Origin: Bacteroidia bacterium
GTDB taxonomy: Bacteria; Bacteroidota; Bacteroidia; Flavobacteriales; Schleiferiaceae
Length of the DNA: 64,000 nucleotides
Reading direction: 5' to 3'
NCBI GenBank assembly: GCA_030424545.1
Contig: JAUHWL010000002.1
Location: forward strand, 62,001-126,000
A model generated the notes under the pieces. That model worked only from the letters and a program-made list of their open reading frames with translations, was not told the DNA's origin and did not search any database. Below are positions 39,027-53,072 of the stretch, in pieces (the stretch's first letter is position 1; each line of letters begins with the position of its first letter). Both the position numbers and the translations under genes were made by a program.

Positions 39027-42000
39027 ATGAGCAATCAGCTGATTATATCACTTTTGTGTTTTATTGTTCCCCTATTGGGCGGAAGCCAAACGAAGAACGA
39101 TGAATTCTGGCAAAAACAAATTGTAAAAAGCCAAAAAATTTATTCAGATTTTAATGATTCATATATAGGTGATTTAGAAAGTAACTTAACTAACTACTGC
39201 AATTCTAGTCAACACAAAGAAGAAACAAGTATTTCCATTGGCATTGTGGCATTAAGTAATAACAATGTTAGGTTGGCTTATATGCGCTTGGGTAATTTAA
39301 TTTCGGAACAAGAACGTTTTATGAACTCATTACGTTCCATTGACGTTTATACAAGCAATTTACTTTGGAAAGCTGAGGCGAACGGTAACAATGAACTTGC
39401 CGTTTCTTTAAAATTGCAACAAGCATTAATTCTCAACTTTTTAGACTCACCAACCGCAGCCATTGATGCGTTAAAAAAAACGGTTGCTTTTGCTTATCAG
39501 CACTTTGGCGACACCAGTTTTATTTCAGCAATGGTGCATTATAACTTGGGGTATGTGCTCTTTGCGCACCAAAATAAACTGTTAAATGTGGGCGGATTTA
39601 GAAATAATATAAAACCGCAAACCATTGCCGCAACGGCAAAAATGGCAGAGGAAAGCATCGATCATTTGCAGCGCGCATTGATAATTTTAAAAGGCATAGA
39701 ACGAGATAAAACGGAAGTTGGAGGACGCATTTTTTTTGTTTTGGGAAATGTGTATCACTTCAGGCAAATGTCTTTGCTGGCCTTAGAAAATTACCAGCAA
39801 GCGGCACAGATTTACCTTCGTTCTAACACCCAATACATAGAGCCCAATTTATTTTACCAAATTGGTAATGCCAGCGAAATGATGGGGTTGTATGACCAAG
39901 CCCTGTATTATTATAAAAGTCTTGCAGATACTGACCAACCTAGCGATATGCTCAATAACAGAATTGGAAATGTGTACTTAAAATTAGGAGATTATGACAG
40001 AGCACTTGATTATTTCAACAGTGCTTTAAATCATTGGAATGCGCATAAAGATAGTGTAACACATTACCAGAAACACATTGCCTCTGGTTATGACAATTTA
40101 GGAATGGTGGCTTTTTATCGCGGTCAATATGCTACGGCAGAAAGCTATTTTATAAAATCTACAAAAATCTGGAGTAATTGGTACGGCCCCTTACATTGGG
40201 ATGTAGCATACGGTTACCAACAAATGGCAAGAGCACAGGCTAAGTTGGGAAATCAAAAAGAGGCGCTTAAAAATTTAGAAAAAGGACTAACAATTAGAAA
40301 GAAGCTGTATGGAAAAAAAGGAGCCGAAATAGCAAGCAGTTATTTTTTCATGGCTGAAATTTATCGCGAAACGAACAATTGTTTACAAGCTGTAGAGTAC
40401 TACAATTTGTCATTAAACGCTGGTCGAGAATTTTGGGCGGATGGCCATCCACAGCTGGCAGGGTGTTATTTTGGTTTGGCGAGTATCGCGCTTCAGAAGG
40501 GTGAATTTAAACAAGCAGAATTGCTTATCTCAGAAGGACTTTTCAAGCAAAAGTATGAGGTGTCGATTGCTGATAAACCTACAGAAGTTCGATTTTATTC
40601 GCCAATAATGGCCTTTCAGTTTTACCAGTTAAAATCAGAATTATTAGAAGAAAAAGCGAAAACCTATAAAGTTAGAAATGCCGCGGTGTATCTAGATTTG
40701 GTAAAACAAGCTTTACAAAGTGTAGAATATGGTGTTGAAATAGAGCGAAAAATTAGAGCAAGTTTTCAAAGTGTTGAGGATAAAATAATTCTAGGAAATA
40801 GTGCTAACCAAATGTATAACAGGGCGGTGCGGTTGGCCGTGCAATTGAATCTTATCAGTAAAAAAGCCAATTACAAGCATCTTGCTTTTCGGTTTTCAGA
40901 AATGCATAGAGCAAGAAGCTTACATGAGGCTTTAGCCTCCATAAATTCTAGAAACAACAGTGGTCTTGTTGATAGTGCAATTGCACAAGAGCGTGGTTTA
41001 CTTGCAAAAATTCGTGTGCTTGAAAATAAAATAGCCGTAATGAATGAAACCACCAATAAAAACGAGCGGGTGGAATTGAGCAACTTGTTGTTTACGTATA
41101 AGCGGGAATATGAAGGTTTAATTGAAAAAATAGAGCAAAACAATCCACAGTATTATCAGCTAAAACATCAAACAAAAATTGCAACAGTTGCCGATATTCA
41201 AAAGCAAATGGCCGCAAAAAATGAAATGTATGTTGCATATTATTTTGATGAAAAACAGCTCTACACGTTTGTTGTAACACCGCAGGATTTTAAAATAAAA
41301 AGCACAATTCTCTTCCCAAATTTTAAAGAGCTTCTGTTGCGCTTTTTGACAAAAATTAACAACAATGATATTGCACTTAATCAGCTACACAATCCTACAG
41401 AAATTAAGCGATTTGCAACGGAATCACATTTTTGGTATAACACTTTGTTGGGTTGGGCGCTAGACAATAATACCAATGAACCCCAGCGTTTAGTAATAGT
41501 AGCAGATAACATTTTAAACCGTTTGCCATTTGAGGTCTTGCTTACATCTAAAGTGCCAGAAAACAAAATGCAATTTCAAAATCTACCGTATTTAATTCTT
41601 AAATATGCTGTGCGCTACGAATATTCTGGGACAATTTATTTACAGACACCATTAAAAATAAAGCCGACTCATCCTAAAATTTACGGAGGTTTTGCACCTA
41701 TCTATTCAAATTCAGAAACCAGAACATTGCGAAGCAAGAGCAAATTTAATGCGCTGCGTGATGAACTTTCTCCCCTTAAATATAACACTACCGAAGTACA
41801 AACAATGGCAGCGCTTTTTGATGGTGATGTGTTTATTGGTGAACGAGCAAATACTCAAAATTTTAAGGCAGAGTTAAACAACTATAAAATTTTGCATTTG
41901 GCCATGCATGCGTTTGTTAACGACACTGTAAACCAACTTTCGGCTTTGTTTTTTAATGATACAAAAAATGCAATTAGCCCAAGTGTTTTATATACCGAAG

Positions 42001-42434
42001 ATATTTATGCCTTGCAAATGGAAACTGATTTGCTTGTGTTAAGTGCATGCAACACAAATGTTGGCGAATTTGTATCTGGAGAAGGAACTATGAGCTTAGC
42101 GCGTGCATTTCGCTATGCCGGATGCCAAAACATTGTGACCAGTTTGTGGCAGGTTGACGATGAAGCTGCTAGCCAATTGATGGAAAGATTTTTTGGCTAC
42201 ATAAAAAAAGGCCATGCCAAAGATGATGCATTGCGACACGCAAAAATTGAGTATCTAAAAGAGGCTAAAAACCCACACCCATTTTATTGGGGGGCATTTG
42301 TGTTGCTAGGGCAGCCAGAGCCGTTGTTCGAAAAACATAGACGCAATAATTGGTGGCTTTTATTGGGGTTGCCAATTATTGTTTTTCTGGGTTTCAAAAG
42401 CATTAAGAAAAATAAACATCATGCTAAAAATTAA
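39027..42434 (+). CDS. Exported, membrane-anchored TPR-CHAT (caspase-like) protease
   Basis: 1135 residues. Residues 1-20 (hydrophobic L-I-I-S-L-L-C-F-I-V-P-L-L-G-G) form a signal peptide. About eight TPR-like helical pairs span residues 165-515 (for example G-D-Y-D-R-A-L-D-Y-F-N-S-A-L). A helical segment at 520-720 leads to a C-terminal CHAT domain at about 720-1100. The catalytic pair is visible: His961 in H-L-A-M-H-A and Cys1008 in L-V-L-S-A-C-N-T. A hydrophobic helix at 1108-1124 and a basic tail (K-K-N-K-H-H-A-K-N) would anchor it in the inner membrane, with TPR and protease in the periplasm. Its 3' end overlaps by 4 bases the convergent TPR membrane protein gene. CHAT proteases are clan CD relatives of caspases; the substrate here is unknown. 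Confidence 0.9.
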   Translation: MSNQLIISLLCFIVPLLGGSQTKNDEFWQKQIVKSQKIYSDFNDSYIGDLESNLTNYCNSSQHKEETSISIGIVALSNNNVRLAYMRLGNLISEQERFMNSLRSIDVYTSNLLWKAEANGNNELAVSLKLQQALILNFLDSPTAAIDALKKTVAFAYQHFGDTSFISAMVHYNLGYVLFAHQNKLLNVGGFRNNIKPQTIAATAKMAEESIDHLQRALIILKGIERDKTEVGGRIFFVLGNVYHFRQMSLLALENYQQAAQIYLRSNTQYIEPNLFYQIGNASEMMGLYDQALYYYKSLADTDQPSDMLNNRIGNVYLKLGDYDRALDYFNSALNHWNAHKDSVTHYQKHIASGYDNLGMVAFYRGQYATAESYFIKSTKIWSNWYGPLHWDVAYGYQQMARAQAKLGNQKEALKNLEKGLTIRKKLYGKKGAEIASSYFFMAEIYRETNNCLQAVEYYNLSLNAGREFWADGHPQLAGCYFGLASIALQKGEFKQAELLISEGLFKQKYEVSIADKPTEVRFYSPIMAFQFYQLKSELLEEKAKTYKVRNAAVYLDLVKQALQSVEYGVEIERKIRASFQSVEDKIILGNSANQMYNRAVRLAVQLNLISKKANYKHLAFRFSEMHRARSLHEALASINSRNNSGLVDSAIAQERGLLAKIRVLENKIAVMNETTNKNERVELSNLLFTYKREYEGLIEKIEQNNPQYYQLKHQTKIATVADIQKQMAAKNEMYVAYYFDEKQLYTFVVTPQDFKIKSTILFPNFKELLLRFLTKINNNDIALNQLHNPTEIKRFATESHFWYNTLLGWALDNNTNEPQRLVIVADNILNRLPFEVLLTSKVPENKMQFQNLPYLILKYAVRYEYSGTIYLQTPLKIKPTHPKIYGGFAPIYSNSETRTLRSKSKFNALRDELSPLKYNTTEVQTMAALFDGDVFIGERANTQNFKAELNNYKILHLAMHAFVNDTVNQLSALFFNDTKNAISPSVLYTEDIYALQMETDLLVLSACNTNVGEFVSGEGTMSLARAFRYAGCQNIVTSLWQVDDEAASQLMERFFGYIKKGHAKDDALRHAKIEYLKEAKNPHPFYWGAFVLLGQPEPLFEKHRRNNWWLLLGLPIIVFLGFKSIKKNKHHAKN

Positions 42435-43174
42435 ATCTTAGCAAGCAGTGGCTGTGCCATTTTGGTATAGTACGGCAATTTTAAATTCACCAATGTTTCT
42501 AAATACTGTGCTGCCTTTTCTTTGTTGCCTAGTTTTAATTCGGTTAAAGCTGCATACCAAATACCATCTGCTTTTCTGGCCGAAACGCCATTGGCTAAAA
42601 TGATAAAATTTTGAAGTGCTAGATTGGGTTTGTCTATTTCCAGTTGGCAGATTCCTAAAAATAATGTGGCATCAGCTTGTTTTATTGGGCCTGCTTGATC
42701 TAAGTATTTTTGCCAGGTAATAACTGCATTTTGGTAATTGCCAGCACTATATTCTTTCACAGCCAATTCCCAAAATTGGTTTTCTGAATCGTTTTTTTCG
42801 TTGCGTAAAGTTTCTAATGTGGCGGGTTTATAATATTCTAAATAAAGATCTTGAGAGGTTGATTTTGATTGAAAATAAAAATACCCAATTGGCAGCATGG
42901 CAACCAATAAAATAATGGCGGCCGCTTTTTGTAGCATTGAAAACTTGAGTGCCGGTGATTTATTTTTGGATTTGTATTGGGCTTTTAATTTCTGTATTAA
43001 TTCTTCTTGGCCAGCATTATCTATGGCTAAAAATAATTGATAATACGCTTTGGCCTGGGCCGCAAAATGTGCGTCTCGGGCGAGCGTTTCTTCAAATGCA
43101 TGCATTTCTTTGGCCGACATGGTTTTGCGGTAATAGGCTCTAATTTGATCTACTTTTTCTTGGCTTAGTTCCAT
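42431..43174 (-). CDS. Single-pass membrane protein with periplasmic TPR domain, candidate anti-sigma factor
   Basis: 247 residues. A cytoplasmic helical part (residues 1-80, including R-A-Y-Y-R-K-T-M-S-A-K-E-M-H-A-F-E) has the size and placing of an anti-sigma domain but no zinc His/Cys motif. One transmembrane helix follows at 81-100 (A-A-A-I-I-L-L-V-A-M-L-P-I-G-Y-F-Y-F). The C-terminal 130-245 contains TPR-like helix pairs (Y-S-A-G-N-Y-Q-N-A-V-I-T-W-Q-K-Y-L, L-G-N-K-E-K-A-A-Q-Y-L). It begins 15 bases after an ECF sigma gene, the standard place for its anti-sigma factor, and ends 4 bases inside the convergent TPR-CHAT gene. The anti-sigma role is inferred from position and topology. Confidence 0.8.
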   Translation of the reverse strand: MELSQEKVDQIRAYYRKTMSAKEMHAFEETLARDAHFAAQAKAYYQLFLAIDNAGQEELIQKLKAQYKSKNKSPALKFSMLQKAAAIILLVAMLPIGYFYFQSKSTSQDLYLEYYKPATLETLRNEKNDSENQFWELAVKEYSAGNYQNAVITWQKYLDQAGPIKQADATLFLGICQLEIDKPNLALQNFIILANGVSARKADGIWYAALTELKLGNKEKAAQYLETLVNLKLPYYTKMAQPLLAKI

Positions 43175-43189
43175 TTTTTATTGCCCAAT

Positions 43190-43768
43190 TTATTTTCGCT
43201 TACCTAGCAAGGTGCGCAAGTTTTGCAAACACAAGAATTTTTTATTTCGAACTTGCCTTGCGTTGCTAAACCCATATTTTTCAATAAGTTCTTCGGTTAA
43301 ATAATCTTGAAAAAGCGCATCGATTAAAAAGTCTTTGCAAAAAGAATCCATTGAACAAAGCATTTTTTTAATGTGTTTAACTTCTTCGGTGTTTATTAAA
43401 TGAGTAAAAAAATTAGTTGATGTGTCTTCTACATCGGGTGCTTTTTCGTTTACTATTCGTGTTGCTTTATATGTCGTGTTTTTCCGGTAGGCGTCTATGC
43501 ATTTGTTTTTTACAATTCTATAAAAGTAGGTACTCAGCTTAGAGTCGCCTTTAAATTGGCCTTGCTTAATCTGATTGATTAACGCTAAAAGCCCGTCTAA
43601 ATAAGCATTTAATACATCTTCTTCATTTTGGTCATATTCATTACTTAATGAAATTACCCAGCCTTTATATTTTTTAAATAGCCAAGTAGTGCATGTCTCG
43701 CCCTTGCGCCCGCCTTGCTTAATGCCGGCTATTAAATCTTTGTCTGTTTGTTTTTTTATCGGATACAT
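43190..43768 (-). CDS. ECF-type RNA polymerase sigma factor (module A)
   Basis: 192 residues from the ATG at 43768 (a TTG four codons earlier is possible). The region-2 helix pattern is L-I-A-G-I-K-Q-G-G, W-L-F-K-K-Y-K-G-W-V and D-S-K-L-S-T-Y-F-Y-R-I-V-K-N-K-C-I-D-A-Y-R-K. Region 4 has L-T-E-E-L-I-E-K-Y-G-F-S-N-A-R-Q-V-R-N-K-K-F-L-C-L-Q-N-L, where A-R-Q-V-R-N-K-K replaces the more usual recognition-helix sequence. There is no extra regulatory domain. The gene is upstream of the TPR membrane protein and divergent from the FG-GAP gene over 127 bases. Confidence 0.9.
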   Translation of the reverse strand: MYPIKKQTDKDLIAGIKQGGRKGETCTTWLFKKYKGWVISLSNEYDQNEEDVLNAYLDGLLALINQIKQGQFKGDSKLSTYFYRIVKNKCIDAYRKNTTYKATRIVNEKAPDVEDTSTNFFTHLINTEEVKHIKKMLCSMDSFCKDFLIDALFQDYLTEELIEKYGFSNARQVRNKKFLCLQNLRTLLGKRK

Positions 43769-43895
43769 TTTCAAATCCAAGGTAGGCGTTTAGTGCTAAA
43801 ATTAAAAGAGCAATAAAGACGCGCATATATTTTTCTCGACACATAGAGTAAGCGCAGCAAAACGCGATGCAATTATTAACCTAAAGTTATTTGTT

Positions 43896-46157
43896 ATGAA
43901 AAATGTATTAGAAATGTACCAAGAAGATTTTCTACAACGAAAAATAGAAAAACACCTTTATACTAAAAATGCGATACGTGACCTTTTGGTTCTAGGAATT
44001 TTATTGCTCTTTGGCATAGTTTCTTTAGCCAACAATAATTCATGTGGAGATATTTATAGTTTTTTTCAAGATGAAGAATATGCTTTGCACCCAGTAGGTA
44101 ACGCGCTTCTGGGCGAGAATCCAGTACAGCGTTTTTCTTTTGAGCTTACTGGAAAAGGGTATGTAATTCATCCCAAAAACACATCACAAAATGCCATAAC
44201 ACTTGATGTAATTGGGATTTATTCTGCCAACGCTAGTTTAAACAATCAATCTATTGCTTTAGAAACGCCTCACCCAAATCAGGCTGTTTACTGGCAGAAT
44301 AATTTTAAAATAGAGTACATAAACAATGCACTGGGGTTGCGCCAAAACTTCATCATAAACCAAAATCAAAACACCAACCAATTGCATGTTTTGCTGATGA
44401 TTTGCGGTGCTACCCCAGTTTTAAAAAACAGCAAAACAATATCGTTGCAAAATGCAAACGGCCAAGAAATTTTAAGCTACGCAGATTTAAATGTTTGGGA
44501 TGCCAACGGAGAAAAACTTGATGCAGCCTTTACTACAAGCGGTCAACAAGTGTACATCAACCTTAAAAACATACAAAGCGCTGCTTATCCAATTACCATA
44601 GACCCTATTAGCACAACTCCTGATTGGCAGGCCGAAATAAATCAAGCAGGTGCCTACTTCGGCCGATCACTTTCTTCTGCAGGTGATGTGAATGGTGATG
44701 GTTTTAACGATGTTATTATAGGTTCATTAAATTTTAGCAACGGCCAAAGCAATGAAGGTGCTGCATTTGTATATCATGGCAGCGGTGTGGGATTATGTGC
44801 TTCACCCAATTGGCAATTTGAGTCTAATTATGCCAATGCCAAATTTGGCTATTATGTAAAAAAAGCTGGTGATGTAAATGGCGATGGTTTTGATGATGTA
44901 ATGGTAAGCGCGGCAGACTATACAAAAGGCCAGAACAGAGAAGGTGCCGTTTATGTATTTTATGGTAGCAGCACAGGGTTAGATACAGCGGTAAGCTGGT
45001 TTGCAGAAGGCAATGTGCCAGACTCAAGGTTTGGCGATCAAATTTCTGCCGCAGGAGATGTTAATAATGATGGCTATGATGACATTGTTATTGGAGCAGT
45101 AGAAAGAGGTGTATATACTGGTGCAGCCTATATGTATCTTGGAAGCAGCACAGGTTTGGGCAATACCCCTGCTTGGCAATTTAATGGAACGCAACAGGGA
45201 GCCGCCTTTGGTACCGGAATTTCTGGTGGTGGAGATATTAACGGAGATGGCTTTGATGACATTGTGGTTGGTGCTTTTTGGTACACTAACGGGCAAGCAA
45301 ACATTGGGCAAGCATATGTGTTTTACGGCAGCGCCACAGGTTTGTCATCATCGGCCAACTTAACTCTTCAAGGCAATACAACAAACATTGGTTTCGGGCA
45401 TCAATCTGCATTTGCAGGTGATGTAAATAGCGATGGATATGATGATCTTCTTATCAGTTCAAACATAGTTTCAGGACAAAATGGAAGGGTGCAGCTATAC
45501 CTCGGAGGAAGCTCAGGTTTAAATACTACGGCAAGTTGGGTTTTAGTAGGAACACAAATTAACGAGGCAATGGGCTACCGTCTAGCTGGGTTGGGCGATG
45601 CGAACAAAGATGGTTTTGATGATATCATTGTTGGTGCTTATCAATATACTAACGGAGAGAGCGAAGAAGGTCGTGCATTGGTTTTTTATGGAAACTCTTT
45701 TGGATTAGATACCGTTGCGGCACGCGAATATGAAAGCAACCAAGCGGAGGCGAATTTTGGATTGGATGTGGCTGGCGCAGGAGATGTAAATGGCGATGGC
45801 TGGGATGATATTTTAGTTGGTGCATCGCGCTATGATAATGGCCAAGCAGATGAAGGAGCAGCTTTTCTTTTCTATGGAAACTCAAGCAATTTTAACGTTC
45901 ATGAAAACAACAATGTAGAGGCATCTATTTATTTCTCAAACCACCAATTACAAATTAACTCTGCCGCCTTAGCCGGAGTAATTGCAAATCTTAGAATTAC
46001 TGACATGGCTGGTCATACGATGTACGATTCGGCCATAACGTTATCTGCCGAGGAGCAATTTGTGGCCTTTCGATTTAATCCAGGCGTTTACGTGGTGCAG
46101 CTTTATAACGTAGAAAAAAACCTGAATCAAGTAATCAAATTGATATGTGTAGAGTAG
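43896..46157 (+). CDS. FG-GAP (integrin-alpha-like) beta-propeller surface protein, probably T9SS-exported
   Basis: 753 residues. An unusually long N-terminus of ~27 residues precedes the hydrophobic signal helix (L-L-V-L-G-I-L-L-L-F-G-I-V-S-L-A). Residues ~45-245 are an Asn/Gln-rich beta domain. Seven FG-GAP blades follow (about 250-660), each with a calcium loop of the D-V-N-G-D-G-F-D-D type followed by V/I-x-G. The last ~75 residues resemble a T9SS sorting domain (I-A-N-L-R-I-T-D-M-A-G-H ... F-N-P-G-V-Y-V-V-Q-L-Y-N). It is probably a surface adhesin or ligand-binding protein needing calcium. It diverges from the ECF sigma gene and precedes the LamG gene by 106 bases. Confidence 0.87.
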   Translation: MKNVLEMYQEDFLQRKIEKHLYTKNAIRDLLVLGILLLFGIVSLANNNSCGDIYSFFQDEEYALHPVGNALLGENPVQRFSFELTGKGYVIHPKNTSQNAITLDVIGIYSANASLNNQSIALETPHPNQAVYWQNNFKIEYINNALGLRQNFIINQNQNTNQLHVLLMICGATPVLKNSKTISLQNANGQEILSYADLNVWDANGEKLDAAFTTSGQQVYINLKNIQSAAYPITIDPISTTPDWQAEINQAGAYFGRSLSSAGDVNGDGFNDVIIGSLNFSNGQSNEGAAFVYHGSGVGLCASPNWQFESNYANAKFGYYVKKAGDVNGDGFDDVMVSAADYTKGQNREGAVYVFYGSSTGLDTAVSWFAEGNVPDSRFGDQISAAGDVNNDGYDDIVIGAVERGVYTGAAYMYLGSSTGLGNTPAWQFNGTQQGAAFGTGISGGGDINGDGFDDIVVGAFWYTNGQANIGQAYVFYGSATGLSSSANLTLQGNTTNIGFGHQSAFAGDVNSDGYDDLLISSNIVSGQNGRVQLYLGGSSGLNTTASWVLVGTQINEAMGYRLAGLGDANKDGFDDIIVGAYQYTNGESEEGRALVFYGNSFGLDTVAAREYESNQAEANFGLDVAGAGDVNGDGWDDILVGASRYDNGQADEGAAFLFYGNSSNFNVHENNNVEASIYFSNHQLQINSAALAGVIANLRITDMAGHTMYDSAITLSAEEQFVAFRFNPGVYVVQLYNVEKNLNQVIKLICVE
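44640..45880 (+). repeat. Seven tandem FG-GAP/VCBS coding repeats
   Basis: The calcium-loop motif D-V-N-G-D-G or a variant occurs seven times at roughly 180-190-base intervals, the first near 44683 and the last near 45783. The repeats differ in sequence, so they are an old protein repeat rather than a recent DNA duplication. Seven copies fit a closed seven-bladed propeller. Confidence 0.85.
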
Positions 46158-46194
46158 CCATGGTTGTTTGCTATTCCTAAAGCGAGATTTAGAA

Positions 46195-46222
46195 TTGGTC
46201 GCAAATAAAACCTTGCGGCCAA
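46195..46222 (+). other. Intergenic hairpin between the FG-GAP and LamG genes
   Basis: TTGGTCGCAA and TTGCGGCCAA form a 10-bp stem (one G-U pair) around an 8-base loop. No T-run follows, so it is not a simple terminator. It could be a processing or stability element that uncouples expression of the two co-directional genes. Confidence 0.5.
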
Positions 46223-46263
46223 CCCTTATCCATAATCAAACAAAATATTTAAATCATAGCGAG

Positions 46264-49200
46264 ATGAAAAAACTACTATACTTATTAATTGCCTTTTTAG
46301 CGCTGGTAACCCATTTGTTGGTTGCACAAAATAGCACTGCTTTGGATTTTGATGGGGTGAATGATTTCGTAGATGTGAATTCCAATTTTACCCATCAAAA
46401 CTTTACGATAGAAATGTGGGTAAATCCAGGAAGCACTCAACTAGAACATGCGGATATTATTGATAATAATCATAATAACTTTCAAAACTGGACGGTTCAG
46501 CAATTTGATAATAATGTAAATGTGTACCGATTTATGGTGTTTAATTCTGGACCTACAATTTGTGTTTTTACGCTAACTGCTGGAGTCTGGCAACATGTTG
46601 CACTTGTAAAATCATCAACTCATTTAGAATGCTACATTAACGGTGCGCTTAGTGTAAGCCAGCCGTTTAGCGGCAAAATAAATTACAATGCGCAACAACT
46701 TAGACTTGGAAGATGGGGAGGTGGAGGCCGATACTGGAGTGGTATGCTTGATGAAGTGCGCATTTGGAATCGCCCTTTGTCACAAACCGAAATACAAAAC
46801 AAAATGACCCAATCATTACAAGGCAATGAAGAAGGCTTGGTGCTTTATTATGATTTTGAAGAAGGTATACCTAACGGAAACAACGCTGGGTTATCACAAG
46901 TTTTTGACAATGCTAGTAATTTCCATGGAACGCCAATGAATATGACTAAAACAGGTGTGAATTCTAATTGGGTAAGCGGATTGCCTTTTAGAAAAGCACC
47001 GTACTCATTTTCTTCATCTTTTTGGGGAATTGCAAGAGAAGGAGGCACTTATAATGAGGGTACCGTTTTTAAAACCGATGCCAACGGAGATAATCTCACC
47101 AAAATATTCGACTTTAACGGTGGTAGCTCAGGGAATGAAATCTATCGGGGTTTGGTACAAGCAAAAGATGGTAACCTGTATGGAACAACTCGGTCTGGCG
47201 GGCAAAATAGTCGAGGTGTGCTTTATGTAATCAACCCATTTTCATTTAGTTATACAAAACTTCATGACTTTGCAAGCTCAAGTGGAAGTTATCCTGAAAA
47301 TACCCTGATAGAAGCAGACAACGGCAAGCTTTATGGGATGACAGTTCAAGGAGGTGCCAATAATAGAGGTGTATTGTTTGAGTATAACCCGTACTCTGAT
47401 ATTTATTTAGTAAAATATCATTTTGGATATGGCAACGGAAATTACCCTAGAGGCGGGCTTATGCAGGCAAGTAACGGAAAGCTTTACGGCTTGGTTACAG
47501 ATGGTGGAGGATATGGCCGGGGTGTGCTGTTTGAATATGATCTTACTACTGATTCGTTTACCAAATTAAACGATTTTAAAATGGTGATAGATGGCAGTTT
47601 TCCGCGTGGTAGATTGGTAGAGGCTTCAAACGGCAATCTTTATGGAATGACGTATAGTGGTGGCAATCCAAACAAAGGAACATTGTTTGAGTATAACATT
47701 GGCAATGCAACATTTACTAAGAAAATAGAATTTAATGGTTCAGGTAACGGAAAAAACCCTTACGAAAGCAAACTTGTAATTGGAGAGAATGGCAAGCTTT
47801 ATGGAATGACTTTAAATGGAGGAACGATGGATGACGGGGTGCTTTTTGAATATGATCCCAGCACAAATACACTCACAAAAAAATACGATTTTGAGGCCAA
47901 TATTTCAGGCAAAAGCCCAACTGGTAGTTTAATGATTGCTAAAAATGGTAAGTTTTATGGTAACTTACAAGATGGGGGAAACAATGGTGAGGGCGCTTTT
48001 TTTGAGTATGATTTAACAACAAACTCTTTAGTTAAAAAACATGATTTTAACACCTTGAACGGAAGTCACCCAAAAGGTGATGTAATTGAATATTGCCCCC
48101 AAAATATTAGCCTAACAGGTAACGGAAATCAAATAGCCAATAACGCCTCTCCAGAATTACACAACAGCACCAATTTTGGAAAACTCTCTGCAGGAGCAAC
48201 ACAAACAAACACGTTTACCATTTCCAATTCGGGCAATGCTCATTTAGATTTAACAGGCTCTCCTTTGGTTGCCACAACAGGGAGTTCTGCATTTACAGTA
48301 GTAAATCAACCTTCCGTTAGTTCCTTAGCACCAGGTGAGTCAACCTCTTTTGATGTGGAGTATAATATAAGTGCAGGCGCAAACGAATTGGCTCAAATTT
48401 GTATTGCTAATAATTCGTTAGAAAATCCCGTTTTTAAATTTGATGTTTCGGGTGCCTCAAATACAGCCATGCATTTTGATGGGGTAGATGATTTTATTTC
48501 TGTATCCAGAACTAACATTAACTCCTTGGGGTTGACCTCACAAGCCACATGGGAATTTTGGTTGAACCCGCATAGCACAGCGGTTAGCCAGAATTTAATA
48601 GATATGTTCAGTTTTTACAATGTAGATGGTATGTACATTCACATGAATTCCGCCAACTTTTTTTATACGCAAAACTCACCAACTTTTAGTTCACAAACTA
48701 TTGCAACTTTACCGATTGCAAACGTATGGACCCATGTTGCGGTGGTTAAAGAGGGAACGAACGTAAAAATTTATTATAACGGAGTATTTCAAACAAGCAA
48801 TTCCAGTCATGCTCAATCAATAATTTCGTCTAACGCAGATTTAGAAATTGGTAGGCAATCCTCAGGTAATTCGTTTACCCAGTATTTTAAAGGTAAACTA
48901 GACGAAGTGCGCATCTGGAACCGTGCTTTGTGCCAAGCCGAAATACAAGGCAGGATAAACAACGCTATACAAGGCAACGAAAATGGTTTAGTAGCTTATT
49001 ATGATTTTGAAGAAGGTGTTCCCAATAATAATAACACAGCGTTAACTCAAGTTATTGACAAAGCAAAAACAAACCATGGCACGCCCAATGGTTTTGCAAA
49101 AAATGGTGGAGCTTCTAATTGGGTACCCGGAAAAGACTTGGTGGGCGATGGATTGGTATCTGGCGCGTTGGCTACTTGGAACGGATCAACTTCAAGCGAC

Positions 49201-50796
49201 TGGAATACGGCCAGCAATTGGACTCCTGGCTTGGTTCCAAGCCAATGTCATGATGTTGTAATTCCACAAACAAGCAACAACCCAACTTTTAGCAACAACC
49301 AAGCGGTAAACAGCATCACCATAGAAACAAATGCTATTTTAACCGTTGGCGCAGGGGGCTGTTTGTGGGTGGGTTCCTCTTTTAAAAATAATGGTGATTT
49401 TATTTTAGAAGCAACCAGCAGCAACTTTGCTCAGTACCAAGGCCCGCAAGTAAAAGGTACGCTTAGCCAAGTTATTGGAGAAGCCGGCTGGCACAACATT
49501 GCATCACCATTTATAGATGCAACATTGGGCGATATCATTTTTAATCAGAATGCTTTTTTGCAGTTTGGTTTATCAGATAAATGTAATATTCAATATTACG
49601 ATGGCGGAGAGCATCAAGCATCGCCACCCAATGCATGGACAAATGCTTGGGGTAGTTGGGTTCCGGCAAGCGGATTAACAGATCCTTTTGACGGCAGCCG
49701 GGCATACAACTTGTTTTTAGACAACCTTTTTGCAGATGCTTTTCCTGTAACCATGACGGTAACTGCTACCATCAGAAATGCCACCAACACGCAACAACTT
49801 AACGGGGCCAATGGTGGTTGGAACATGCTTGGCAACCCCTTCTCTAGTGTAATTGATTGGGAAAAATGGAGCGACAACAGCGCCATAAACAACACCTATT
49901 ATGTGTGGGATGCAGCCACCAATAATTACAATACCTATATGTCCGGGGGCGTTGGCGTTCCCGCTGCAATGACGCAATTCATCGCGCCATACCAAAGCGT
50001 GTTTGTACGCACTAGCAACGGCCAGAACAATAACAGTGGCGATGAACCCGATGTTTTTCAAGACCACATTAGCAGCCGTGCCGACCTGCCTACAGAGTGT
50101 CCAACGGCCATCAACTCGTTTTACAAAAATGAGGTAACGGGCCGCCTTTATCTTCAAGCAAAAACAATAAATGGAAATGGAGCTGATCAACTGGCCATCC
50201 GATTTGGAAATAACTTTAGCGAAGGATTTATGGCTGCTGAAGAAGCTGAAAAATTCTTTAGCCCTGCCAAAGAAGTACCTGCGATTTACACCATTATTGA
50301 AGTGAAGCCTTATGTAATAAGCTCTTTTCCGCAGCCCGATGTTGAGGTACAACACATACCGCTTGGGTTAAAAACCAATGCGAAAAGAATCCAGATACAG
50401 GCATTAGAAATTCCCATTGGCTTAACGGCCATTTTAGAAGATAAAGAGAAAAAAGAGTTTCATAATTTAAAAACTTCGTACACGTTTACATTAAACAGCA
50501 CCTTAACAAACATGCGCTTTATACTGCATGTGGGCGATAAGTTTTTAACAGAAGCCCAGCTTGGCGCCAGCGAAGATTACATTGCATACATTGCTAATGG
50601 CGAGTTGCGCTACGTGTATAGCACTAATCTATTAGGCGGAGAGATGCAGCTTTTAAATATGAGCGGCCAGGTTTTAGCGTACGGAAAGGTAGAAGAAAAC
50701 GGCAGCGTTTCGGTGTCACATTTACCCGTAGGGTTATATATTATTACCGTACAAAACAGCGGCAAGTTTTACAAACAAAAGGTGGTGGTAAAGTAG
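46264..50796 (+). CDS. Giant multidomain T9SS surface protein: LamG, GloVer repeats, choice-of-anchor D, LamG, sorting domain
   Basis: 1510 residues from the ATG at 46264, where a good signal peptide starts (M-K-K-L-L-Y-L-L-I-A-F-L-A-L); the in-frame start at 46168 would hide it. In order: a LamG/concanavalin-type jelly roll (about residues 22-195) and six to seven GloVer-type tandem repeats (about 256-610). Then a choice-of-anchor D/ASPM-like beta domain (about 614-732) and a second LamG copy (about 736-915). A Trp/Asn-rich beta segment (W-N-G-S-T-S-S-D-W-N, from ~975) leads to a type A sorting domain ending in Y-K-Q-K-V-V-V-K. Likely a surface adhesin or glycan-binding protein. It has no recognisable catalytic domain. 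Confidence 0.88.
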   Translation: MKKLLYLLIAFLALVTHLLVAQNSTALDFDGVNDFVDVNSNFTHQNFTIEMWVNPGSTQLEHADIIDNNHNNFQNWTVQQFDNNVNVYRFMVFNSGPTICVFTLTAGVWQHVALVKSSTHLECYINGALSVSQPFSGKINYNAQQLRLGRWGGGGRYWSGMLDEVRIWNRPLSQTEIQNKMTQSLQGNEEGLVLYYDFEEGIPNGNNAGLSQVFDNASNFHGTPMNMTKTGVNSNWVSGLPFRKAPYSFSSSFWGIAREGGTYNEGTVFKTDANGDNLTKIFDFNGGSSGNEIYRGLVQAKDGNLYGTTRSGGQNSRGVLYVINPFSFSYTKLHDFASSSGSYPENTLIEADNGKLYGMTVQGGANNRGVLFEYNPYSDIYLVKYHFGYGNGNYPRGGLMQASNGKLYGLVTDGGGYGRGVLFEYDLTTDSFTKLNDFKMVIDGSFPRGRLVEASNGNLYGMTYSGGNPNKGTLFEYNIGNATFTKKIEFNGSGNGKNPYESKLVIGENGKLYGMTLNGGTMDDGVLFEYDPSTNTLTKKYDFEANISGKSPTGSLMIAKNGKFYGNLQDGGNNGEGAFFEYDLTTNSLVKKHDFNTLNGSHPKGDVIEYCPQNISLTGNGNQIANNASPELHNSTNFGKLSAGATQTNTFTISNSGNAHLDLTGSPLVATTGSSAFTVVNQPSVSSLAPGESTSFDVEYNISAGANELAQICIANNSLENPVFKFDVSGASNTAMHFDGVDDFISVSRTNINSLGLTSQATWEFWLNPHSTAVSQNLIDMFSFYNVDGMYIHMNSANFFYTQNSPTFSSQTIATLPIANVWTHVAVVKEGTNVKIYYNGVFQTSNSSHAQSIISSNADLEIGRQSSGNSFTQYFKGKLDEVRIWNRALCQAEIQGRINNAIQGNENGLVAYYDFEEGVPNNNNTALTQVIDKAKTNHGTPNGFAKNGGASNWVPGKDLVGDGLVSGALATWNGSTSSDWNTASNWTPGLVPSQCHDVVIPQTSNNPTFSNNQAVNSITIETNAILTVGAGGCLWVGSSFKNNGDFILEATSSNFAQYQGPQVKGTLSQVIGEAGWHNIASPFIDATLGDIIFNQNAFLQFGLSDKCNIQYYDGGEHQASPPNAWTNAWGSWVPASGLTDPFDGSRAYNLFLDNLFADAFPVTMTVTATIRNATNTQQLNGANGGWNMLGNPFSSVIDWEKWSDNSAINNTYYVWDAATNNYNTYMSGGVGVPAAMTQFIAPYQSVFVRTSNGQNNNSGDEPDVFQDHISSRADLPTECPTAINSFYKNEVTGRLYLQAKTINGNGADQLAIRFGNNFSEGFMAAEEAEKFFSPAKEVPAIYTIIEVKPYVISSFPQPDVEVQHIPLGLKTNAKRIQIQALEIPIGLTAILEDKEKKEFHNLKTSYTFTLNSTLTNMRFILHVGDKFLTEAQLGASEDYIAYIANGELRYVYSTNLLGGEMQLLNMSGQVLAYGKVEENGSVSVSHLPVGLYIITVQNSGKFYKQKVVVK
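47036..48080 (+). repeat. Tandem GloVer-type coding repeats
   Basis: The pattern L-Y-G-M-T-x-x-G-G-x-x-x-x-G-V-L-F-E-Y recurs near 47170, 47320, 47480, 47635, 47800 and 47950, with a partial first unit near 47040. The period is about 155 bases (51-53 residues). Units are diverged at DNA level. This matches the repeat family known as GloVer (choice-of-anchor tandem repeat), assigned from memory of its consensus. Confidence 0.75.
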
Positions 50797-50877: not shown

Positions 50878-52506
50878 TTACAGACCATAACGAATTCCCA
50901 CACTAAATCCGTAGCCCAAATATTTTTGATTTACAGCTTTGCCTTTTAGAACAGAGTTTAAGGTGTAACGCAACGAGGGGTAAAAGCTAGCTTCAATTCT
51001 TTCAGTTACTTTTAGGCGCACACCGGCTCTAAACATGGTTTGAAATAGTACTTTTTGGTATTGTTCTATGCCTGCCGTAGAAAGTCCATCTGTACGCGCA
51101 TTGATATAACGTTTCTCCGATGTTGCGGTTAAAAAACCTACGGCAAATCCTGCTTGTACATCAAACGTAAATTTTTGAGCAGAAAAACTGCGCCCAAACC
51201 ATAGAGGAACCTCCATATAACTCAATGTTAATTTACCATTGTTCTTGGCCAGTTCAGGGTCTTCTTTTTCAACTTGTACACTGTCCCATTGGGCCGTGTA
51301 AGTGCTATCGTAATCTAGGTTCCAAGTGGTGTCTGTGTCCCAATGGCCATGATATACAGAGTCTATAACCCAGTTAGAATCTACATTGTATGTCCAATTT
51401 TCATGAGTTGTCCAACTACCATTGTCTTGGCCTACGGTAACAAGGAGTGAAGTTGGATATTGCAATACATCTGTAATTTTTGTTTGATATATACCCGAAT
51501 TGAACAACCAGTTTTTATAGCCCAATTGCACGCTTATACCAAAACTTGTCATATTATTAGATGATTCATATTGTGTTCTAAATTCTTCTAAAGCCAGATT
51601 GGAACTAGATAAGAACCTTGTGGTAAACAGATAGGAATATTCTAGACCAACGGCATAGGTAAAATTATCTCGGGTTTTAAAAGGAGTGTAATCGGGTGGA
51701 ATAACTTCTTCTTTGTCATCTAATTTGCTGTGTTCCGTTTTGTCTAAAATGGGATTTACCTCTGGCTCTGTTTTTTCCACAGCTTTATTTTCTGCGGTTT
51801 TACTTTTTGCAAAAGATTCTTCTTTTTCGGCAAGAAGAGCATTTTCTAAATAAGGTAACGCAGAAGTTGCCGTGTTTGCCTCAGAATTCAACGAATTTTT
51901 TTCATGACTATTTTCCTCAGAAACAGTTGTCTCTGGGGCGGTTTCGTTGTCTTTTGTGGCGTTTATTGCTGGAGTTAAACCTGCCAATTCTTGCTCATCA
52001 GCTTCCGGCTCTGCATTACCTTTATTTAGCATAGCATTGGTGTTTTGTTCCGCTGCTATTGGAGTAGAAAAATCTTTATGGTTGTGTTTTGTGGTTGTGT
52101 TTGTATGTGTTGTGGCCTTTGTATTTTTAGTCAAACTCGTTTCTTGATTGGTTTGTTTCGCGTTGCTGTTTGGCAGTAAAGTTGGATTAACTACTAGACT
52201 ATTTGATTCATTTTTGGTAGATTGATTTAATTCTGAATTTGAGGTTTCTTCAATTGCTATAGGTATTTGGTTTTGAAGGTTAATTTGCGTGGTGTTATGC
52301 TGGGCATGAAGCAAAAACAAGAGGGCAGATGTGCCCGCAAGCAAAAAAGCCAAACCAGATAAAGATTCTTTAATAATGCCCACAACAGATGAGGCATTAC
52401 GTTGGTCAAGTAATTTTTCGGCACCCGCCCAGTAGCTATCGTTATACGGAAAATGGCCTTTTGAAGCATTCTCCTTAAACAGTTTGTCAATTTTTTTATC
52501 CTTCAT
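50878..52506 (-). CDS. Protein predicted to span both membranes: anti-sigma-like head, inner-membrane helix, long linker, outer-membrane beta-barrel
   Basis: 542 residues with four zones. Residues 1-45 are a short charged cytoplasmic segment (D-K-L-F-K-E-N-A, Y-W-A-G-A-E-K-L-L). Residues 49-67 are one hydrophobic helix (G-L-A-F-L-L-A-G-T-S-A-L-L-F-L-L). Residues 68-280 are Asn/Thr/Glu/Lys-rich, low complexity and probably unfolded. Residues 281-542 alternate hydrophobic and polar residues as an outer-membrane barrel ending G-F-S-V-G-I-R-Y-G-L. There is no cleavable signal peptide. A Trp/Asp/Thr-rich stretch at 362-412 looks like a long extracellular loop. The ATG overlaps the stop of an ECF sigma gene by one base (TAATG). 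The layout recalls the dual membrane-spanning anti-sigma factors described in Bacteroides; homology is untested. Confidence 0.85.
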   Translation of the reverse strand: MKDKKIDKLFKENASKGHFPYNDSYWAGAEKLLDQRNASSVVGIIKESLSGLAFLLAGTSALLFLLHAQHNTTQINLQNQIPIAIEETSNSELNQSTKNESNSLVVNPTLLPNSNAKQTNQETSLTKNTKATTHTNTTTKHNHKDFSTPIAAEQNTNAMLNKGNAEPEADEQELAGLTPAINATKDNETAPETTVSEENSHEKNSLNSEANTATSALPYLENALLAEKEESFAKSKTAENKAVEKTEPEVNPILDKTEHSKLDDKEEVIPPDYTPFKTRDNFTYAVGLEYSYLFTTRFLSSSNLALEEFRTQYESSNNMTSFGISVQLGYKNWLFNSGIYQTKITDVLQYPTSLLVTVGQDNGSWTTHENWTYNVDSNWVIDSVYHGHWDTDTTWNLDYDSTYTAQWDSVQVEKEDPELAKNNGKLTLSYMEVPLWFGRSFSAQKFTFDVQAGFAVGFLTATSEKRYINARTDGLSTAGIEQYQKVLFQTMFRAGVRLKVTERIEASFYPSLRYTLNSVLKGKAVNQKYLGYGFSVGIRYGL

Positions 52507-53072
52507 TATGCGCCCTTCATAATTACATTTTTTGCAATAATCATTTGTTTTAAAACCTCTCTAGATTTTGCTAAATAGCGTTTAGATGTTCTTTCTGAAA
52601 TGTTTAACTCTTCTGCTATTTGTTTGTGTGTAAAACCATCTATAGCATACAGGTTAAATATGGTTTTCCCAGGTTCATCCAAAGCGTCCATCATTTCTAA
52701 ATAGTCATGATAGGTTAAACCGTTTTCATCGGCATTAATGTCATCGTCTGTATATTTTTCGTTTTCCCATGCATCATCATCTAAAAAAACAATGCTGTTG
52801 TAAATGGTCTTTTTTCTTCTTAGATGATCTAAACATTCGTTAATGGCAATCCTTTTAATCCAGGGAATAAAAGGTTTAGACAAATCGAATTTTTTTAGAT
52901 GTGTAATGGTTTTGTAGAAAGTTTCATTTACCAGAGCAACGGCATCGTCATGGTTTCTTTCATATCTAAAACAAATACTCATTAAAAACTGAAAATATTT
53001 TTCATACAATTCCTTCTGCGCCTTTCGGTCGTTTTTTAAACAATCCTCTAACAGGTTTTTAAGGTTTTGCAT
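52506..53072 (-). CDS. ECF-type RNA polymerase sigma factor (module B)
   Basis: 188 residues. Region 2 shows E-L-Y-E-K-Y-F-Q-F-L-M-S-I-C-F-R-Y, D-A-V-A-L-V-N-E-T-F-Y-K and P-F-I-P-W-I-K-R-I-A-I-N-E-C-L-D-H-L-R-R. Region 4 shows F-N-L-Y-A-I-D-G-F-T-H-K-Q-I-A-E-E-L-N-I-S-E-R-T-S-K-R-Y-L-A-K-S-R, a textbook sigma-70 recognition helix. The linker is acidic (D-D-D-A-W-E-N-E ... D-D-D-I-N-A-D-E). It is translationally coupled to the two-membrane protein by TAATG. A strong hairpin with a U-tract ends at the base before its start codon. Confidence 0.93.
   Translation of the reverse strand: MQNLKNLLEDCLKNDRKAQKELYEKYFQFLMSICFRYERNHDDAVALVNETFYKTITHLKKFDLSKPFIPWIKRIAINECLDHLRRKKTIYNSIVFLDDDAWENEKYTDDDINADENGLTYHDYLEMMDALDEPGKTIFNLYAIDGFTHKQIAEELNISERTSKRYLAKSREVLKQMIIAKNVIMKGA

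Follow-up and report, generated by a model that had tools for sequence, protein, structure and literature searches.

Does a separase-like protease, encoded next to an extracytoplasmic function (ECF) sigma factor and a single-pass membrane protein, release that sigma factor by cutting the membrane protein that holds it? The question is raised by a three-gene locus in a 64,000-nucleotide stretch of DNA, here called the window, from contig JAUHWL010000002.1 (positions 62,001 to 126,000, forward strand) of the Bacteroidia bacterium assembly GCA_030424545.1 (Flavobacteriales, Schleiferiaceae). The locus consists of the following genes.

43190-43768, minus strand: ECF sigma factor gene, 192 aa counted from ATG
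42431-43174, minus strand: single-pass tetratricopeptide repeat (TPR) protein, predicted anti-sigma factor and CHAT substrate, 247 aa
39027-42434, plus strand: TPR-CHAT protein, 1135 aa from ATG, predicted from Pfam matches and a structural model to be an exported, C-terminally anchored site-1 protease

We propose that this trio is a regulated-proteolysis switch in which the CHAT protein would be the site-1 protease of the neighbouring anti-sigma factor, and we give this reading a probability of about 0.8. The genes are conserved together, the CHAT protein has a peptidase fold and catalytic dyad, its partner has a conserved arginine, and this arginine covaries with two acids of the predicted substrate pocket. 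From the covariation we infer the cleavage, to which the proposal adds an activating direction and a site-2 step.

Organisation and conservation of the locus

The sigma gene lies 15 bases upstream of the TPR-protein gene on the same strand, and the CHAT gene is convergent to the latter with an overlap of 4 bases, just as a sequence-only reading of this DNA had described. A TTG at 43780 is a possible alternative start of the sigma gene. The sigma protein has the sigma2 region (Pfam Sigma70_r2, E about 7.5e-9 to 7.9e-9) and the small size of an ECF sigma factor; the sigma4 models of Pfam gave no match, although the C-terminal half of the protein is present. The predicted anti-sigma gene directly downstream gives the pair the sigma neighbour expected of an ASDI anti-sigma factor.

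A single-sequence search with the TPR protein over genome contigs found no match, and in 60 relatives gave weak matches in a few genomes, near CHAT genes, from which the profile work started. CHAT genes occur in 12 of these relatives, and 11 CHAT loci were fetched. The complete trio is present as direct neighbours in five: one has a single operon in the order sigma, anti-sigma, CHAT with small overlaps (L011), and four have the convergent arrangement of the window (L012, L015, L016, L021), L015 with the identical 4-base overlap. In three more the sigma/anti-sigma pair is divergent to an operon containing CHAT (L017, L019, L020). The trio is not present in L013 and L018, and L014 is cut by the contig end.

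Across Bacteroidota, CHAT was found in 127 of 247 genomes, and the trio genes are variously convergent, in one operon, divergent or merely near each other. The ectodomain of the inhibitor varies among trios while the CHAT gene stays. In a sample of 120 long CHAT open reading frames, taken from the better-scoring CHAT matches, an ECF sigma gene lies within 1.3 kb of 40, against a rough expectation of about 2% derived from the 3-37 sigma genes per genome; the proximity is thus more than chance. It had been expected that CHAT proteins with a C-terminal anchor would always stand beside a sigma gene, but the data show enrichment only (28/59 anchored versus 12/61 non-anchored, p 0.002, at the same distance). 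The sequence-only reading had named lack of conservation of the three-gene neighbourhood in relatives as one of the results that would refute it; the trio recurs both in relatives and across the phylum.

Strong matches (E<1e-20) to a profile of the head, membrane helix and linker of the anti-sigma family (A3) are confined to CHAT-positive genomes, many of which seeded the profile. In genus g21, which includes Flavobacterium profundi, the family is present in 9/9 CHAT-positive and 0/5 CHAT-negative genomes (Fisher 5e-4), some of the nine being profile seeds and one, G112, being counted at a weaker E of 2.6e-14. Among loci fetched from head-profile matches, a sigma gene adjoins the match in 20/20 and a CHAT gene lies within 10 kb in 10/20; in a further set the sigma gene is beside the match in 29/30.

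Tandem CHAT copies occur in L087, L120, L240 and L259, the first and the last two of these being near a single sigma/anti-sigma pair.

The predicted anti-sigma factor and its linker arginine

The TPR protein has the following parts, in which an arrow marks a predicted cut.

42950-43174, minus strand: cytoplasmic anti-sigma-like head, residues 1-75, helical in the model, with a weak profile match to zinc-type heads
42869-42934, minus strand: transmembrane helix, residues 81-102, from sequence and model
42803-42805, minus strand: codon of Arg124, predicted P1 residue of the predicted cut Arg124↓Asn125, from conservation in relatives and CHAT-linked enrichment
42437-42781, minus strand: periplasmic TPR ectodomain, residues 132-246, from the model and Foldseek matches to TPR domains

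The AlphaFold model (single chain, mean pLDDT 87) has a helical head at residues 5-68, the membrane helix at 81-102, a loop at about 115-131 and TPR helices at 132-246. At E 0.01 Pfam leaves the 247-residue protein unmatched, although its relatives do match TPR models. The head resembles, weakly, the zinc-type heads found in sister trios that have a different ectodomain (hhalign probability 30%, P 5.5e-4). One of these zinc-type heads is above the cut-off for zf-HC2, a family that is also touched at E<0.1 by 4/31 relatives of the TPR protein. The divergent TPR proteins are likely to be anti-sigma factors, with sigma binding predicted for the head.

A blind alignment of these 31 relatives, which are only 12-28% identical to the protein of the window, has just two positions conserved at 90% or more: Ala84, within the membrane helix, and Arg124, 22-23 residues past it. 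Of the CHAT-linked proteins 47/51, and of the controls 3/32, have an arginine directly before a small residue at a distance of 8-45 residues downstream of the membrane helix (Fisher 8e-15); the controls are a mixture of membrane proteins encoded downstream of other sigma genes in a set of the same genomes. Shuffling within each sequence gave the motif 23.5 times on average and at most 32 times. These counts show an association with CHAT, not a function. The sister trios with zinc-type heads retain R-S in the linker in spite of their other ectodomain, and the site is therefore tied to the CHAT partner rather than to the TPR fold. The cut is predicted to fall after Arg124, in the juxtamembrane loop. 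The protein would thus be a single-pass anti-sigma factor with a conserved periplasmic site close to the membrane, as in site-1/site-2 proteolysis.

The TPR-CHAT protein

The features of the CHAT protein, all on the plus strand, are listed below; Arg-partner CHATs are those whose partner has arginine at the predicted site.

39027-39089: N-terminal hydrophobic segment resembling a signal peptide, about residues 1-21 (MSNQLIISLLCFIVPLLGGSQ), with similar N-termini in nearly all trio relatives
39300-40547: TPR superhelix, about residues 92-507, from five stretches matching Pfam TPR_12 and model helices
41475-42314: CHAT (separase/caspase-like) domain, residues 817-1096, from Pfam (E=5.8e-51) and the model
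41793-41795: Glu923, in helix alpha1, predicted S1-pocket acid, E in 68/68 Arg-partner CHATs
41907-41909: catalytic His961, invariant in aligned CHATs
42048-42050: catalytic Cys1008, invariant in aligned CHATs
42159-42161: Asp1045, at the end of loop L5, predicted S1-pocket acid, covarying with the cut site
42345-42425: C-terminal transmembrane anchor, residues 1107-1133, with a basic cytoplasmic tail, from the model helix, hydropathy and relatives

Several TPR models of Pfam match the protein, TPR_12 among them. The structural model (single chain, mean pLDDT 80) has a clan CD fold and a C-terminal helix at 1107-1133, with a weakly modelled region at about residues 34-92. Its best structural matches are Csx29 (8eey, E 4.5e-15), human separase (9hn0) and DdvA (8rot). 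In profile searches of the PDB the full-length protein was swamped by TPR proteins, and the CHAT domain alone was used instead. His961 and Cys1008, which the sequence-only reading had described as intact, are both present and are invariant in 45/45 trio CHATs. By domain, dyad and modelled fold the protein is a clan CD cysteine peptidase, its activity being predicted.

The same reading had placed the protein in the periplasm, and the signal-peptide-like N-terminus together with the C-terminal membrane helix favours export over a cytoplasmic location. The protein looks exported and anchored in the inner membrane, judging from hydrophobicity, the positive charges beside the anchor (KSIKKNKHHAKN) and the model. 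The genome of the window encodes two further exported TPR-CHAT proteins (L004, L005), which have neither the C-terminal anchor nor a sigma gene nearby.

The S1 pocket of clan CD peptidases is formed mostly by helix alpha1 and loops L3 and L5, and a P1 arginine is bound in MALT1 by Asp365 (alpha1) and Glu500 (L5), in gingipain R by Asp163 (alpha1) (PMC4357240). In the CHAT model Glu923 is in the helix preceding the strand of His961, and Asp1045 is at the end of the loop after the strand that follows Cys1008. By analogy, the two are taken to be at the alpha1 and L5 acid positions. It might be thought that Asp1045 is the equivalent of separase Asp2151, but the published alignment, in which Csx29 has Lys670 in place of Asp2151 (PMC9729208), together with counting, puts that residue four positions further on, at Ser1049. 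Because Asp1045 is not aligned with Asp2151, its direct contact with P1 is something that we infer.

Covariation of the protease pocket and the site

The pattern was first seen in four pairs with a non-Arg partner site, Lys in two and Met in two, each with Glu at position 1045 of the CHAT, and was then tested on further fetched loci. There are 105 usable pairs, with site letters taken from the alignment except in L261, L278, L280 and L281, which were read by eye; three rows, L223, L239 and L282, were truncated or unclear and are not counted. The 68 pairs with Asp1045 all have Arg, and the 37 with Glu1045 have Lys (31), Gln (3) or Met (3), with zero exceptions. On a CHAT-domain tree calculated without column 1045 each trait changes three times, twice on well-supported branches, and since there are no mismatched pairs the changes of both traits fall at the same places. 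A naive estimate of such branch coincidence is 5e-5 for two changes and 7e-7 for three.

A prediction recorded beforehand, that Glu1045 in genus g164 would go with a non-Arg site, held in 12/12 new loci, all of them with Met; G374 was also named in the prediction, and no adjacent partner was found there. Position 1045 did not suffice as the sole rule, however: Asp for Arg and Glu for non-Arg fails on L306 and L318, and Glu923 was added. With this addition, Glu923 and Asp1045 are both intact in 68/68 Arg-partner CHATs and in 0/51 non-Arg ones (31 Lys, 3 Gln, 17 Met); Glu923 by itself is retained in 7 CHATs of the non-Arg set. Of 348 columns scanned, Asp1045 is the sole well-populated one in which Arg partners differ both from the Lys/Gln class and from the Met class. 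L021, with an ambiguous site (M↓R or R↓A) and Leu923, fits the Met class.

It is probable, in our view, that these proteins represent a phylum-wide set of periplasmic separase-like site-1 proteases in Bacteroidota, each with its own ECF sigma/anti-sigma pair, and that the S1 acids and P1 residue form a readable code. Glu923 with Asp1045 would specify Arg; Glu1045 would specify Lys, Gln or Met; and loss of Glu923 with Asp1045 kept would specify Met. In some genomes (G569, G623) the anti-sigma head and linker profile has 17-28 matches, and additional specificity classes could lie in this expansion, for example those of L290, with L↓SSS, and of L294 and L311, with M↓G.

Several observations weigh against the proposed switch and its code. 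The covariation amounts to about three or four independent changes, and a sign test on 2-3 pairs cannot reach 0.05. L306 and L318 pair Asp1045 with Met, both lacking Glu923, and the refinement with Glu923 was made post hoc, after these two had been seen. The Lys pairs L210 and L248 have Gly or Leu at 1045 and are outside the D/E comparison. Asp1045 may instead cap a helix. A sigma gene is absent within 1.3 kb of about half of the anchored CHATs, and Glu923 and Asp1045 are conserved also in CHATs with no sigma gene nearby, so that the two acids mark specificity for Arg and not for this substrate. Cleavage of the anti-sigma factor by CHAT is itself a prediction from sequence.

The covariation also bears on the alternative that survives best, in which CHAT regulates the anti-sigma factor by binding, the arginine linker docking in the CHAT cleft and TPR-TPR contacts transmitting the signal. 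Both ectodomains are TPRs, and docking would likewise make the arginine covary with two CHAT acids. Pure binding would not need the dyad, however, and His961 and Cys1008 are invariant in all aligned CHATs; moreover the sister trios swap the TPR ectodomain for another fold while keeping both the arginine site and CHAT. We therefore consider binding alone unlikely.

Proposed mechanism

We suggest the following model for the proteolytic switch. The N-terminal head of the TPR protein would keep the sigma factor at the inner membrane. The TPR-CHAT protein would lie on the periplasmic side, with its C-terminal helix as the anchor; because this helix comes directly after the protease domain, the active site should be near the membrane. 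CHAT would become active, possibly through its TPRs, and Cys1008 and His961 would then cut the flexible loop between the membrane helix and the TPR domain, after Arg124, which would be recognised in the S1 pocket by Glu923 and Asp1045. An RseP-type site-2 protease would next act on the remaining membrane stub and set the sigma factor free.

This model retains the core of the sequence-only reading, that CHAT cuts the anti-sigma factor, for which the neighbourhood, the apparent export and the covariation all speak. It moves the predicted site from the TPR ectodomain to the juxtamembrane loop (R124↓N125). Where the sequence-only reading had CHAT in place of DegS/RseP-type site-1 cleavage, it adds that an M50 site-2 step is probably still needed after the CHAT cut; the genome has one M50/RseP-type gene (E 1.8e-54), which speaks for presence only.

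Upstream of the CHAT operon, the Flavobacterium relatives share a conserved element, GGTAACAATW-N13-KATRTA. Exact matches to it in eight genomes fall inside the trio locus in 11 of 17 cases, the pattern having been drawn from some of the same sites, and this suggests that the sigma factor drives CHAT. There would then probably be positive feedback in these relatives. The motif was not seen by eye in the upstream stretches of the window itself.

A putative sigma promoter on the CHAT operon would also suit a different explanation, that a general periplasmic site-1 protease cuts the anti-sigma factor, and that CHAT acts on some other substrate or simply belongs to the regulon. That CHAT genes are found without sigma neighbours is in keeping with it. 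As it leaves the joint change of the site residue and the CHAT pocket unexplained, we regard it as very unlikely. A role for the cluster as a defence or cell-death module, like Csx29 or the gasdermin-acting CHAT proteases, is highly improbable: TPR-CHAT proteases are known in defence (PMC9729208) and Csx29 is the best structural match, but the CHAT protein here is predicted to be exported and membrane anchored, its neighbours in relatives are secreted proteins of the type IX secretion system (T9SS) type, and neither a CRISPR nor a gasdermin-like gene is among the open reading frames listed around it, a comparison that did not extend to the PADLOC library.

Neighbouring genes

The window has two large secreted proteins adjoining the sigma gene divergently, which are a candidate regulon.

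43896-46157: large secreted protein with FG-GAP repeats
46168-50796: large secreted protein with LamG and Por_Secre_tail domains

At the position of these genes L011, L015 and L016 have a T9SS-tailed M43 metalloprotease or subtilase. Several of the large secreted proteins beside sigma, in the window and in related loci, carry type IX sorting domains, a hint at the output of the switch. The window contains another ECF sigma gene (about 52809-53009), which has a downstream 542-residue single-pass protein of another type (50878-52506) and no CHAT gene adjoining.

Flavobacterium-type loci contain a small retropepsin-like aspartyl protease (PF13650) directly after CHAT (L019:8145-8582, also L017), as well as a 98-residue protein, a 327-residue protein and a PKD/DUF7849 protein. 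In two Flavobacterium genomes the putative sigma promoter element is found at unlinked sites (L321, L334), upstream of an orthologous exported protein that is a possible regulon member.

Comparison with known systems

In a published survey, recognisable anti-sigma domains stand beside only 6% of Bacteroidetes ECF sigma factors, compared with 32% on average (PMC7406223). To our knowledge, no function has been assigned to most bacterial TPR-CHAT proteins. On both points the trio offers an answer for a sizeable group, in which the divergent TPR proteins are likely anti-sigma factors and the CHATs are likely the proteases dedicated to them; the cut site and the residues that set its specificity are predicted down to single amino acids. 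If this is true, the site-1 step of a signalling route from envelope to transcription is carried out by a separase/caspase-like protease in a setting other than CRISPR, and the covariation code could be used to pair other CHAT proteases with their substrates.

The general scheme is that of RseA/DegS/RseP, with a membrane anti-sigma factor, a periplasmic site-1 cut near the membrane and a probable M50 site-2 protease. The site-1 enzyme there is a PDZ serine protease, whereas here it would be a separase-like cysteine protease encoded beside its substrate. With separase, gingipain R and MALT1, clan CD peptidases with a P1 arginine, the CHAT protein shares the His/Cys dyad and, as modelled, the alpha1 and L5 acids; it differs from them in its predicted place in bacterial envelope signalling, and from separase in that Asp1045 does not align with Asp2151.

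The sequence-only reading knew of no described system with this layout, but there is a precedent in DdvS/DdvA of Myxococcus, which likewise has an ECF sigma factor and a transmembrane anti-sigma factor, and the Csx29 system provides a cytoplasmic analogue. The DdvA chain (8rot) is deposited as a CHAT domain protein and matches both the CHAT profile (E 8e-7) and the TPR-CHAT model; no discussion of its CHAT part was found in the literature searched. Its trigger is unknown (PMC4374960). DdvA combines the anti-sigma factor and TPR-CHAT in one polypeptide, whereas the trio has separate genes on opposite strands and a conserved site in the partner. A CHAT protease of the envelope that is separate from the anti-sigma factor it serves was not described in the open-access literature searched, though the large ECF reclassification paper may mention the gene context.

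Also among the closest parallels is Csx29, which cuts Csx30, the inhibitor of CASP-sigma, in a loop around residue 427 (PMC10028731). In both systems a TPR-CHAT protease cuts the inhibitor of an ECF sigma factor, in the trio by prediction. No Cas7-11/gRAMP or CRISPR genes were found among the open reading frames around the trio (no array finder was run). Csx29, part of the type III-E CRISPR complex Craspase, is cytoplasmic and is activated by Cas7-11 and target RNA, whereas the CHAT protein of the trio is predicted to be exported, anchored in the membrane and directed to an arginine site.

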